Below are positions 18,890-21,740 of a DNA stretch of 64,000 nucleotides, piece after piece. The stretch covers positions 460,427-524,426 of the forward strand of contig NZ_HG931174.1 of NCBI RefSeq assembly GCF_000582785.1. Reading direction: 5' to 3'. Below the pieces are notes generated by a model, which was given only the letters and a program-made list of their open reading frames with translations, was not told the origin of the DNA and searched no databases. The DNA comes from Candidatus Blastococcus massiliensis AP3 (GTDB lineage Bacteria; Actinomycetota; Actinomycetes; Mycobacteriales; Geodermatophilaceae). The position numbers and the translations under genes were made by a program. Numbering within the stretch: position 1 is the first letter of the stretch; each line of letters opens with the position of its first letter.

Positions 18890-21187
18890 TCAGAGCTTGA
18901 CCAGCGGGGCGTAGCGGAGGACGAGGCGCTTGGTGCCGCCGGAGCCGAAGTCCACGGTCGCCTGCGCCTTGTCGCCCACGCCGTTCACCTCGACCACCGT
19001 GCCCAGCCCGAAGGCGTCGTGGCTCACGCGGTCGCCGACGTCGACCGAGATGACGGCCCGGTTGCCGACACCGCCGCGCAGCCCGCCCGTGGACAGGCCT
19101 GTGGCCGCCACCCGGGACTGCGCCGACTTGTAGCCGGTCGACGGGGCCGGGGTCGGGTCGAGCCGCTCCCAGTGGATGGTCTCGGCCGGGATCTCGTCGA
19201 GGAACCGGGACGGCGGGTTGTAGGAGGGCTGGCCCCAGCTGGTGCGCACCTGGGCCCGGGAGATGAACAGCCGCTGCTGCGCGCGGGTGATGCCCACGTA
19301 GGCCAGCCGGCGCTCCTCCTCCAGCTCCCGCGGGTCGCCGAGTGCCCGCAGGTGCGGGAACACGCCGTCCTCGAGGCCGGTGAGGAAGACGACCGGGAAC
19401 TCCAGGCCCTTGGCGGTGTGCAGGGTCATCATCGTGACCACGCCGGCGTCGTCGCCCGTGACGGGGATCTGGTCGGCGTCGGCGACCAGGGAGACCTGCT
19501 CGAGGAAGTCGGTGACCGTGCCGTTCGGGTTGGCCGCCTCGAACTCGGCAGCCACCGAGATGAGCTCGTTGAGGTTGTCGACCCGGCCCTCGTCCTGCGG
19601 ATCGGTGCTGGCCTGCAGCTCGGTCAGGTAGCCGGTGCGGTCGAGGATGCTCTCGAGCAGCGCGGCCGGCCCGGAGCCGGTCTCGACCAGCTGCTCGAAC
19701 TCCTCCAGCAGCGCGACGAACTCCTGGATCGCCTTCAACGAGCGGGTGGCGAGCTCGCCCACCTCGGCGCAGCGGCGCAGGGCTCCGGCGAACGGGATCC
19801 GCTCGCGGTCGGCGAAGTTCTCGATGCACGCCTCGGCCCGCTCGCCGATGCCGCGCTTGGGGGTGTTGATGACCCGGCGCAGGCTGACGATGTCGGTCGG
19901 GTTCGCGACGACCTTCAGATAGGCCAGGGCGTCGCGGACCTCCTTGCGCTCGTAGAACCGGACGCCGCCGACGACCTTGTAGGGCATGCCGACCCGGATG
20001 AAGACCTCTTCGAAGACACGGGAGGCGTTGTTGGTCCGGTAGAAGACCGCAATGTCCTTCGGCTGGGCCACGCCCTCGTCGACCAGCGCGTCGATCTGCT
20101 CGGCGACCCAGGCGGCCTCGTCGTGCTCGTTGTCGGCGACGTAGCCCTCGATCAGCTCGCCGTCGCCGGAGTCGGTCCACAGGTTCTTGGGACGGCGGCC
20201 GGTGTTCTTGGCGATGACCGTGTTCGCGGCCTTGAGGATGCGCTGGGTCGAGCGGTAGTTCTGCTCCAGCAGGATCGTCGTGGCCTGCGGGTAGTCGCGC
20301 TCGAACTCGTCGATGTTGCGGATCGTCGCGCCACGGAAGGCGTAGATCGACTGGTCGGCGTCGCCGACGACGCACAGCTCGGCCATCGGCACCGGCCCCT
20401 CGCCGGTGCCGACCAGCTCGCGCACCAGCATGTACTGGGCGTGGTTGGTGTCCTGGTACTCGTCCACCAGCACGTGCCGGAACCGGCGCCGGTAGTGCTC
20501 GGCGACGTCGGGGAACGCCTGCAGCAGGTGGACGGTGTTCATGATCAGGTCGTCGAAGTCCATGGCGTGCGCCTGGCGCAGCCGCTGCTGGTAGAGCGTG
20601 TAGGCCTCGGCCAGCACCTTCTCCGGCGCCGTCCCCGGGACGTAGCTCTCCTCGTCGATCAGCTCGTTCTTCAGGTTCGAGACCTGGGCGGCCAGGCTCC
20701 GGCCGGGGTAGCGCTTGGCGTCGAGGTCGAGGTCGCGGGCGACCATGGTCATCAGCCGCACCGAGTCGCCCTGGTCGTAGATCGTGAACGACGACTTCAG
20801 GTTCAGCTTGGCGGCCTCGGCGCGCAGGATGCGCACGCACATCGAGTGGAAGGTCGACACCCACATCGCACGCGCGCGCGGGCCGACGAGGGCGGCGACG
20901 CGCTCCTTCATCTCGCCGGCGGCCTTGTTGGTGAAGGTGATCGCGAGGATCTCGCCGGGCTGGGTGTTCCGGGCGCCCAGCAGGTAGGCGATGCGGTGCG
21001 CCAGCACCCGGGTCTTGCCCGAGCCCGCCCCGGCGACGATGAGCAGCGGCCCGCCCTCGTGGACGACGGCCTGACGCTGCGGGCCGTTCAGGCCGGCCAG
21101 CATCCGGTCGAGCTCGCGCCCCACCTGGCCCTTGGCCGATCGCTGGAGGGCGGCTGTTCCCGGCAGGGCTTCCTGGACGCTGCTCAT
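18890..21187 (-). CDS. pcrA: ATP-dependent DNA helicase PcrA/UvrD
   Basis: 765 aa SF1A 3'-5' helicase for DNA repair and removal of blocked forks. Visible motifs: Q-motif LNGPQRQAVV, Walker A VAGAGSGKTRVLAHR, FTNKAAGEM, motif II VDEYQDTNHAQ, GDADQSIYAFRGA, LEQNYRST, TLHTAKGLEFPVVFL, and motif VI EERRLAYVGITRAQQRLF. The C-terminal region ends with a Tudor-like VGDRVSHDAFGLGTVVEV segment that in homologues contacts RNA polymerase. ATG at 21187 is preferred; an in-frame GTG lies two codons upstream. Confidence 0.97.
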   Translation of the reverse strand: MSSVQEALPGTAALQRSAKGQVGRELDRMLAGLNGPQRQAVVHEGGPLLIVAGAGSGKTRVLAHRIAYLLGARNTQPGEILAITFTNKAAGEMKERVAALVGPRARAMWVSTFHSMCVRILRAEAAKLNLKSSFTIYDQGDSVRLMTMVARDLDLDAKRYPGRSLAAQVSNLKNELIDEESYVPGTAPEKVLAEAYTLYQQRLRQAHAMDFDDLIMNTVHLLQAFPDVAEHYRRRFRHVLVDEYQDTNHAQYMLVRELVGTGEGPVPMAELCVVGDADQSIYAFRGATIRNIDEFERDYPQATTILLEQNYRSTQRILKAANTVIAKNTGRRPKNLWTDSGDGELIEGYVADNEHDEAAWVAEQIDALVDEGVAQPKDIAVFYRTNNASRVFEEVFIRVGMPYKVVGGVRFYERKEVRDALAYLKVVANPTDIVSLRRVINTPKRGIGERAEACIENFADRERIPFAGALRRCAEVGELATRSLKAIQEFVALLEEFEQLVETGSGPAALLESILDRTGYLTELQASTDPQDEGRVDNLNELISVAAEFEAANPNGTVTDFLEQVSLVADADQIPVTGDDAGVVTMMTLHTAKGLEFPVVFLTGLEDGVFPHLRALGDPRELEEERRLAYVGITRAQQRLFISRAQVRTSWGQPSYNPPSRFLDEIPAETIHWERLDPTPAPSTGYKSAQSRVAATGLSTGGLRGGVGNRAVISVDVGDRVSHDAFGLGTVVEVNGVGDKAQATVDFGSGGTKRLVLRYAPLVKL

Positions 21188-21290
21188 GACCACATCACTG
21201 TAAGCCGGACGGGCGACACTCCCCCGCCGTCGTCCACGCCTGACCCACCTGTCCCAGGAGCGGACCTGGCGTCCTGGCCATGGCCTGTGG

Positions 21291-21296
21291 CAGACT
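21291..21296 (+). promoter_or_regulatory. Putative -10 (CAGACT) for leader/chorismate mutase mRNA
   Basis: CAGACT preceded by TG (TGTGGCAGACT), 7 nt before the leader-peptide GTG at 21304. This fits a transcript starting at the leader start codon. Weak match to TANNNT. Confidence 0.35.
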
Positions 21297-21303
21297 CCCC
21301 GCC

Positions 21304-21366
21304 GTGCTCGCCACGGTTCGCTTTTTCTACGGTCACCGGGATCCGGTGTCCGTCACCGCTGGCTGA
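21304..21366 (+). CDS. Phe/Tyr leader peptide upstream of chorismate mutase
   Basis: A 20-codon ORF encodes VLATVRFFYGHRDPVSVTAG and then a TGA. Three consecutive aromatic codons (TTT TTC TAC at 21322-21330) are control codons of the kind used in ribosome-mediated attenuation. TTT is a rare codon in this GC-rich genome. Directly after the control codons lies a hairpin (CACCGG/CCGGTG, 21334-21348). The ORF stop is followed 17 nt later by an intrinsic terminator. It is too short to be an enzyme and sits alone in front of an aromatic-pathway gene. Similar leader peptides precede aromatic amino acid genes in other actinobacteria. Function is inferred. Confidence 0.7.
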   Translation: MLATVRFFYGHRDPVSVTAG

Positions 21367-21382
21367 GCACACGCCGCAACAG

Positions 21383-21416
21383 ACGCCCCGGGCCCGAGGA
21401 GCCCGGGGCGTTTCTC
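21383..21416 (+). terminator. Attenuator terminator before chorismate mutase
   Basis: ACGCCCCGGGC / GCCCGGGGCGT, 11-bp perfect stem with a 7-nt loop, followed by TTTCTCGTTC. It lies between the leader peptide and the chorismate mutase start at 21459, and so would stop transcription before the gene. The CCGGGATCCGG segment in the leader could pair with the CCCCGG of its left arm as an antiterminator. Confidence 0.8.
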
Positions 21417-21458
21417 GTTCCCGGGGCCCGACGGCCACCCGCACCCGGAGGACGACCC

Positions 21459-21740
21459 ATGAGCACCCTCACCCCATCCGCCGCCGTGACCGGTTCCCAC
21501 ACCGACCGGATCGGCGAGCTGCGCCAGGAGATCGACGCCTGCGACGCCGCGATCATCGAGCTCGTGCAGCGCCGGCTTGCCGTCTCCCAGGAGATCGGCG
21601 CGCTGCGTAAGGCCTCCGGCGGTACCCGCCTCAGCCTGGCGCGCGAGCAGCAGGTCATCGCCCGGTTCCAGGAGGCGCTCGGCCCGGACGGTGCGGCGCT
21701 CGGGATGTTCCTGCTGCGGCAGGGGCGCGGCCGACTCTGA
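21459..21740 (+). CDS. Chorismate mutase (AroQ type)
   Basis: 93 aa, all-helical AroQ fold. Converts chorismate to prephenate, the branch point to Phe and Tyr. Signature: RIGELRQEIDACDAAIIELVQRRLAVSQEIGALRKASGG, with conserved Arg, Asp and Lys residues and REQQVIARFQEALG. ATG at 21459 has a GGAGGAC Shine-Dalgarno. The upstream leader peptide with FFY codons and terminator implies feedback by Phe/Tyr-tRNA charging, fitting the enzyme's role. Single gene; an A-family palindrome follows the stop. Confidence 0.93.
   Translation: MSTLTPSAAVTGSHTDRIGELRQEIDACDAAIIELVQRRLAVSQEIGALRKASGGTRLSLAREQQVIARFQEALGPDGAALGMFLLRQGRGRL

Follow-up and report, generated by a model that had tools for sequence, protein, structure and literature searches.

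Does a short open reading frame (ORF) upstream of a chorismate mutase gene act as an attenuator of that gene? The question was raised by a 64,000-nt stretch of Blastococcus DNA (hereafter the window), in which the original prediction had placed a 20-codon ORF with three aromatic codons in a row, a hairpin and a terminator ahead of the gene. We identified the gene (21459..21740, plus strand) as a chorismate mutase (CM) of the AroQ type, similar to Rv0948c: NCBIfam PRK07857 and TIGR01808 both scored over the NCBIfam cut-off, and the top match among solved structures was Rv0948c (2qbv; phmmer, E 3.8e-19). Its ATG at 21459 lies 92 nt from the leader stop and 47 nt from the end of the terminator hairpin. 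The leader ORF (MLATVRFFYGHRDPVSVTAG*, 20 codons; 21304..21366, plus strand), defined by sequence reading, an in-frame start and family comparison, runs from a GTG at 21304 to a TGA at 21364–21366, and its translation contains ...RFFYGHRDPVSVTAG. The in-frame ATG at 21280 is probably not the leader start, as it precedes the –10-like hexamer described below. Upon re-reading, the ORF at 21304, the hairpin and the subsequent terminator hairpin at 21383–21411 were all present where they had been predicted.

We then considered whether this arrangement could arise by chance. Among 452 short ORFs in the window (one ORF per stop, both strands), a single ORF, ending at 21366, contained three consecutive aromatic codons, and this survey, together with the conservation of the interval, confirmed that the combination of leader ORF, hairpin and terminator exceeds chance. 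The neighboring helicase gene pcrA (18890..21193, minus strand) runs the opposite way, which rules out a terminator serving pcrA. With pcrA divergent and no plus-strand gene just upstream, the simplest target of the plus-strand terminator is the CM leader.

To compare the interval among relatives, we used a CM protein scan, which yielded 21 loci: 20 from Blastococcus, Modestobacter or Geodermatophilus, and one labeled 'unverified Bacillus sp. AZ43'. Blastococcus belongs to Geodermatophilaceae (family f1). The leader motif appeared exactly once in each of the 21 loci and in the window, and from these 22 sequences we built a model, R1. R1 matched 109 of 112 family genomes, which constitutes a census rather than an independent test because the model was trained on the same family; each genome had a single strong match except G328 (a 76% complete assembly), which had two. 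In the 22 family leaders the Tyr codon is preceded by 8, 9 or 14 codons, always in frame. The N-terminal codons drift, hardly any variation is seen beyond the N-terminus (mean column identity, 90%), and the C-terminal half of the leader peptide is strongly conserved (YGHRxPVxVxAG). The comparison proposed as a check of the original prediction was accordingly favorable: in relatives the Phe..Tyr codons persist, as do the stop and the terminator.

The element was also found outside the family. A CM match was present in 111 of 296 genomes drawn from the class, and we inspected the DNA ahead of 89 further CM matches (L024–L112, a part of all matches; L095 offered only 91 nt). R1, trained on the family only, matched 38 of 55 loci at E <= 7e-6, a cut-off chosen after antisense matches at 1.1e-5; 33 of these were outside the family, and 17 loci were unmatched. 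A model partly built from leaders that it then matched (R2) had matches just upstream of CM, on the same strand, in each of the 48 genomes compared, namely 26 of f21, 15 of f2/g2 and 7 from f3, f4, f24, f34 and f38. Among genomes with a CM match, an R2 match lay beside CM in 26 of 27 from f21 and 15 of 17 from f2/g2; the f21 exception, G285, has a remote CM match (E 1.5e-4). We take f21 to be Streptomycetaceae-like and f19, which appears below, to be Micromonosporaceae-like; f2 is probably mycobacterial, because the f2/g2 CM (one locus) closely matches Rv0948c. A rough scan for short ORFs rich in aromatic codons, which misses the leaders of L056, L062 and L073 and takes unrelated ORFs in L069 and L084, found none in the 16 loci with remote CM matches (L097–L112). 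The original prediction had understated the element, which reaches beyond the lineage, pairs its 5΄ end with its stop region and resembles leaders found before DAHP synthase genes.

The proposed regulatory codons are TTT TTC TAC (Phe Phe Tyr; 21322..21330, plus strand). With Tyr numbered 0, all 22 family leaders have this Tyr together with Phe at –2, and 21 of the 22 use TTT for that Phe. Across CM leaders, Tyr was observed at 0 in 71/71 and Phe at –2 in 69/71, encoded by TTT in 66/71; position –1 is variable, and Phe-x-Tyr-Gly is nearly invariant. Nine f20 rows were omitted from these codon counts and from the Trp counts below, since they are divergent and no –10 element was found in them. 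The Tyr codon is TAT in all 26 f21 leaders. The CM leaders thus comprise a short ORF with codons for the end products of the pathway. As had been claimed, TTT is rare here, being used for 3 of the 279 Phe codons that the window contains in 32 coding-like open stretches, some of which may not be genes. Both Phe codons are normally read by one tRNA-Phe; it is possible that the fixed rare TTT at –2 sharpens stalling.

We further analyzed R2 matches located elsewhere. Forty matches away from CM, selected from the stronger ones, were fetched, and 30 of them stand ahead of a DAHP synthase-like gene (confirmed with NCBIfam for two examples and recognized for the rest by the conserved start seen). The other ten looked like chance matches (L151, L152, L155, L198, L201, L202, L204, L206, L207 and L208). 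In f19, 20 of 21 inspected matches precede DAHP synthase, with leaders such as MQRNFWRFYGYRP... or MRTAWSFWYGDGP...; the f19 loci L136–L144, L189–L197, L199 and L200 have Phe, Trp and Tyr codons and a terminator before the gene. The DAHP synthase leaders of L203 (f31; FFSYG) and L205 (f40; FFYGYRSGAP) lack Trp. A DAHP synthase protein search (E <= 1e-40) detected the enzyme in 127 of 198 genomes of the phylum. Of the best 30 loci (L159–L188), 23 had an aromatic-rich leader, in f53–f56 and f93, for example FGFWFFYGG or YFWFFGTSG among the leaders in L159–L184, outside the class; none was seen in the other 7 of these 30, and the gene start is unreliable in L177, L187 and L188.

The two groups of leaders differ in their codons. 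Trp was present in 39/45 DAHP synthase leaders (absent in 6/45) compared with 7/70 CM leaders (Fisher P = 3e-17, relatedness ignored; L069, whose start was not found, and the f20 rows were omitted), and by family majority in 5/7 compared with 0/8 families (P = 0.007). DAHP synthase supplies Phe, Tyr and Trp, whereas CM supplies only Phe and Tyr, and the distribution of Trp therefore fits the pathway. DAHP_synth_1, DAHP_synth_2 and PDT are each matched once in the window genome, and such a leader was not seen in the 500 nt upstream of these domains.

A –10-like hexamer, CAGACT (21291..21296, plus strand), which is conserved in the leader comparison, lies 7 nt ahead of the leader GTG. We searched for the patterns CA[GC]ACT, CAGAAT, CATACT or TANNNT at 6–7 nt before an in-frame ATG or GTG, and found a candidate in 76 of 89 leaders, a set that includes nine DAHP synthase leaders of f19. 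No candidate was found in 13 of the 89, among them all nine f20 rows; L061 has a second hexamer 5 nt from the same start. In all 76 leaders with a candidate the start is in frame (out-of-frame candidates, 0), and the N-termini vary in codon number. Because the hexamer is conserved, these results suggest that the leader mRNA is leaderless and starts at or near the GTG; a consensus scan found no σ70 consensus promoter. The frame kept in 76/76 leaders with a start candidate is an indirect sign that the leader may be translated.

We computed the folding energies of the hairpins and compared them with those of shuffled sequences. Hairpin 1:2 (21329..21353, plus strand; strand 1, 21329–21339; strand 2, 21343–21353) begins in the Tyr codon and is unremarkable by energy alone (–16.4 kcal/mol, z = –1.33; 23 of 200 shuffles were equally stable). 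The stem of terminator hairpin 3:4 (21383..21411, plus strand) comprises 11 pairs with –28.3 kcal/mol (z = –4.70), and 0 of 200 shuffles were as stable; the mean z was –4.32 over the 22 family leaders and ranged by group from –3.7 to –6.0 (four groups, 64 leaders). The fold of the whole leader (21304–21420) had a z of –6.01. The hairpin of the terminator that had been predicted was thus borne out, whereas its T-rich tail (21412..21420, plus strand; UUUCUCGUUC), as read in the sequence, is an imperfect U-tract. A consensus terminator scan did not report 21383–21411 and instead gave a weaker site at 21301, and a crude hairpin-plus-T test returned a score of 0 for the leader ORF ending at 21366. 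The intrinsic terminator between leader and gene is accordingly represented by a conserved hairpin with an imperfect U-tract.

A comparison between families, made on alignment A3, revealed co-variation in hairpin 1:2 and the terminator: two-sided changes occurred at 7 pairs and in 58 cells, a level that 0 of 500 shuffles attained. A3 had been fitted to the structure, which favors this result, but slid versions pair in only 35–45% of cells. Inside the family no co-variation of 1:2 and 3:4 was found, because both hardly vary there. Across leaders, hairpin 1:2 starts in the Tyr codon or a few nucleotides from it, so that a leader hairpin with compensatory pairs stands at the regulatory codons. 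Rfam searches of the window (best matches unrelated and far under gathering scores) and of 12 related loci (two unrelated matches, both under gathering) gave no membership in a described Rfam leader, T-box or riboswitch.

In the minimum-energy fold, the full leader forms one long hairpin, in which the start codon side pairs with the stop region. This closing helix (21304..21370, plus strand) joins 21304–21317 to 21355–21358, 21360–21363 and 21365–21370, and leaves the Phe codons in an internal loop (21318–21328). At least six closing pairs were present in 22/22 leaders of f1, 22/23 of f21, 13/16 of f2, 6/6 other CM leaders and 19/19 DAHP synthase leaders of f19. Compared with shuffled 5΄ ends, the mean z of the closing duplex was –2.60 in f1, –3.42 in f21, –0.97 in f3/4/24/34/38 and –1.94 in the f19 DAHP synthase leaders. 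When the partners of 5΄ ends and stop regions were swapped, 1 of 5000 swaps was as good in f1, 12 in f21, 130 in other CM leaders and 28 in f19; the swaps were made within each group, with relatedness uncontrolled, and a second run had a similar outcome. In f2 the closing helix was not significant (mean z = +0.37; 3394 of 5000 swaps as good). L049, L055, L065 and L069 (no start candidate) and L142 (pattern missed) were left out of this test. The closing helix is thus supported in f1, f21 and f19, and weakly in f3/4/24/34/38.

An alternative pairing is predicted for strand 2. The antiterminator 2:3 (21338..21395, plus strand), obtained with alifold from the 22 family sequences, would pair 21338–21346 with 21388–21395 and 21351–21353 with 21383–21385. 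A small antiterminator helix with the leader stop in its loop (21358..21377, plus strand), seen in folds of family and other leaders, was formed in 22/22 leaders of f1, 23/23 of f21, 1/14 of f2 and 4/5 others folded, and is mutually exclusive with the closing helix. When we folded the RNA that a ribosome halted at Tyr would leave exposed, as far as strand 3, strand 2 paired with strand 3 in 64/64 leaders. These were 22 of f1, 23 of 26 from f21 (without L052, L065 and L078), 14 of 16 from f2 (without L035 and L037, which have lost the terminator) and 5 of 7 others (without L055 and L074); for A5, 24 of 25 references were made, L052 being left out.

The complementarity of CCGGG in the leader with the left arm of the terminator does exist, and the re-pairing envisaged for it is possible in every leader folded, but it is indistinguishable from composition. 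Compared with shuffled sequences, the z of the nascent-region fold was –0.24 in f1, –0.60 in f21, –1.62 in f2 and –1.98 in others, and the mean z of cognate 2:3 duplexes relative to shuffled strand 2 was +0.53, +0.08, –1.30 and –0.93, respectively. A putative, mutually exclusive antiterminator folds in 64/64 leaders, though not above shuffled controls in this GC-rich RNA, and 2:3 is treated here as a predicted pairing. With strand 4 included in the folded stretch (6 of 7 family leaders, and L055), the terminator formed and the 2:3 pairs were gone; 2:3 would therefore need a kinetic advantage.

These features, in our judgment with good confidence, point to a ribosome-mediated transcription attenuator of CM that senses the charging of tRNA-Phe and tRNA-Tyr, and the attenuator reading of the original prediction is supported, given that relatives keep the codons, the stop and the terminator. 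Sequence and comparison show that the leader ORF is present and in frame, that its Phe and Tyr codons are fixed and that it is linked to CM; on the RNA side they provide hairpin 1:2, the terminator and, in f1 and f21, the closing helix. In the mechanism that we infer, transcription would begin at the leader GTG or close to it, and a ribosome would translate the 20-codon leader. With ample charged tRNA, the ribosome would reach the UGA and cover strand 2 and the stop region; with strand 2 covered, terminator 3:4 would form and CM would not be transcribed. When charged Phe- or Tyr-tRNA is scarce, the ribosome would stall on the TTT-TTC-TAC codons and occlude strand 1 together with most of the leader 5΄ end, which includes most of the 5΄ strand of the closing helix. 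The stop region and strand 2 would then be free, strand 2 would pair with strand 3, no terminator would form and CM would be made. Without translation the leader would remain shut, its 5΄ end and stop region paired around hairpin 1:2, and transcription would stop. Because hairpin 1:2 begins at or near Tyr and a ribosome footprint extends ~12 nt downstream (PMC4833913), a stalled ribosome would mask strand 1, whereas a ribosome at the leader stop would mask strand 2 and leave strand 3 free.

The main alternative, which we consider improbable, is that the leader is translated and control is exerted through Rho or translational effects, with the hairpins only punctuating the RNA. It would accommodate the imperfect U-tract, the 2:3 complementarity that does not exceed composition, the retention of the leader frame without a terminator in L035 and L037 (f2), and the f20 leaders, which have the Tyr-Gly motif and a hairpin and lack a U-rich terminator. 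However, the terminator hairpins have mean z values of –3.7 to –6.0 in four groups, and in the window 92 nt separate the leader stop from the start of CM, too great a distance for simple coupling. It is still less probable, and in our view very unlikely, that the leader is an arrest peptide sensing something besides tRNA charge. The conserved C-terminal half of the family peptide would suit such a role, but the conserved residues are encoded by RNA arms, and in f21, where the stem has slid by one base (GGCAACCGG compared with GGCACCGG), Asn-Arg is replaced by Thr-Gly and the stem is retained. That the hairpins are an untranslated riboswitch or protein-binding RNA with an incidental ORF, as the very high nucleotide conservation in the family and the closed start-to-stop fold might suggest, is scarcely credible given the in-frame starts and fixed Phe and Tyr codons, the greater frequency of Trp before DAHP synthase and the lack of a relevant Rfam match in the window and 12 related loci.

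The attenuator reading can be extended to the DAHP synthase leaders, albeit tentatively and with rather less than even confidence. According to this hypothesis, one cassette would have spread over Actinomycetota and relocated between two points at which aromatic synthesis is controlled: a leaderless Phe-x-Tyr-Gly leader, closed on itself by a helix between start codon and stop region and exposing only the regulatory codons, would carry Phe/Tyr codons before CM and usually have gained Trp before DAHP synthase, its codon set being tuned to the branch and its fixed rare TTT perhaps sharpening the stall. Leaders with Phe/Tyr and with Phe/Tyr/Trp would offer a natural comparison for asking if the codons of a leader follow its branch of the pathway, and the purpose of the closed start-to-stop fold is open to test. 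More generally, the element offers a testable model of how actinobacteria may match aromatic synthesis to tRNA charge.

In E. coli, the pheA leader PheL combines Phe codons with a terminator, and tRNA charge controls a chorismate mutase gene. The arrangement described here is similar in its leader and terminator ahead of a chorismate mutase gene and in the control by tRNA charge that we propose, but the target of PheL is a fused CM-prephenate dehydratase, whereas here a stand-alone CM follows a leader with Phe and Tyr codons on a probably leaderless mRNA. PheL is mentioned in a review (PMC11802643), and the AroR leader of C. glutamicum, upstream of aroF, is described as having Phe-Tyr-Phe and responding to Phe, reportedly with no response to Tyr (PMC4046766, PMC11802643). 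AroR is likewise an actinobacterial leader with Phe/Tyr codons; as described, it differs in preceding the DAHP synthase gene aroF, in contrast to the CM gene downstream here. The ilvB-II motif of Corynebacterium is reported as a conserved RNA that turned out to be a uORF containing codons of its pathway, together with a terminator, occurring once per genome with lengths divisible by three (PMC10272879); our element resembles it in being such a motif, once per genome, but ilvB-II, as presented there, concerns branched-chain amino acids, another gene and a single genus. In S. lividans, leuL, trpL, ilvL and other amino-acid leaders are reported, several of them described as leaderless and as having a terminator behind them, as proposed here, but among the eight leaders in Table 4 of that report none is for chorismate mutase or Phe/Tyr (PMC8079986). 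The portion of a 2005 survey that concerns Actinobacteria records no conserved RNA regulatory structures upstream of Phe/Tyr operons (PMC1262725), and the CM leader element, present in several families, is a counter-example to that statement for chorismate mutase. A mycobacterial copy could already be depicted in a figure of attenuated M. tuberculosis loci, the legend of which leaves the genes unnamed (PMC13236596). No description of a leader for a stand-alone actinobacterial CM was found in the open-licence literature, subscription papers being outside the search; the best reading is that the CM leader represents a known attenuation principle at a gene whose leader was not found described in the open-licence literature searched.

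Variants of the element were also observed. In f20 (nine rows, L080–L096), a Phe-Tyr-Gly motif and a hairpin (e.g. GGGGACCG..CGGTCCCC) lie ahead of CM, and neither a –10 hexamer beside the start nor a U-rich terminator was found in these rows; possibly these leaders are a divergent form. Among the 27 CM loci of the same order that were read, 19 had a leader, including L035 and L037 without a terminator, and in eight the leader was absent (L039, L041, L042, L043, L046, L047, L048 and L051). The leader frame persists in L035 and L037 (both f2), with the leader stop displaced in L037, and the attenuator looks in both as if it were decaying. Upstream of CM in L047 and L048 (f2, genus g3), where no aromatic leader was found, the two loci share a stretch around GGTCTGTTTCACGGTGAA, and a –10-like site is followed by a different short ORF beginning with ATG.
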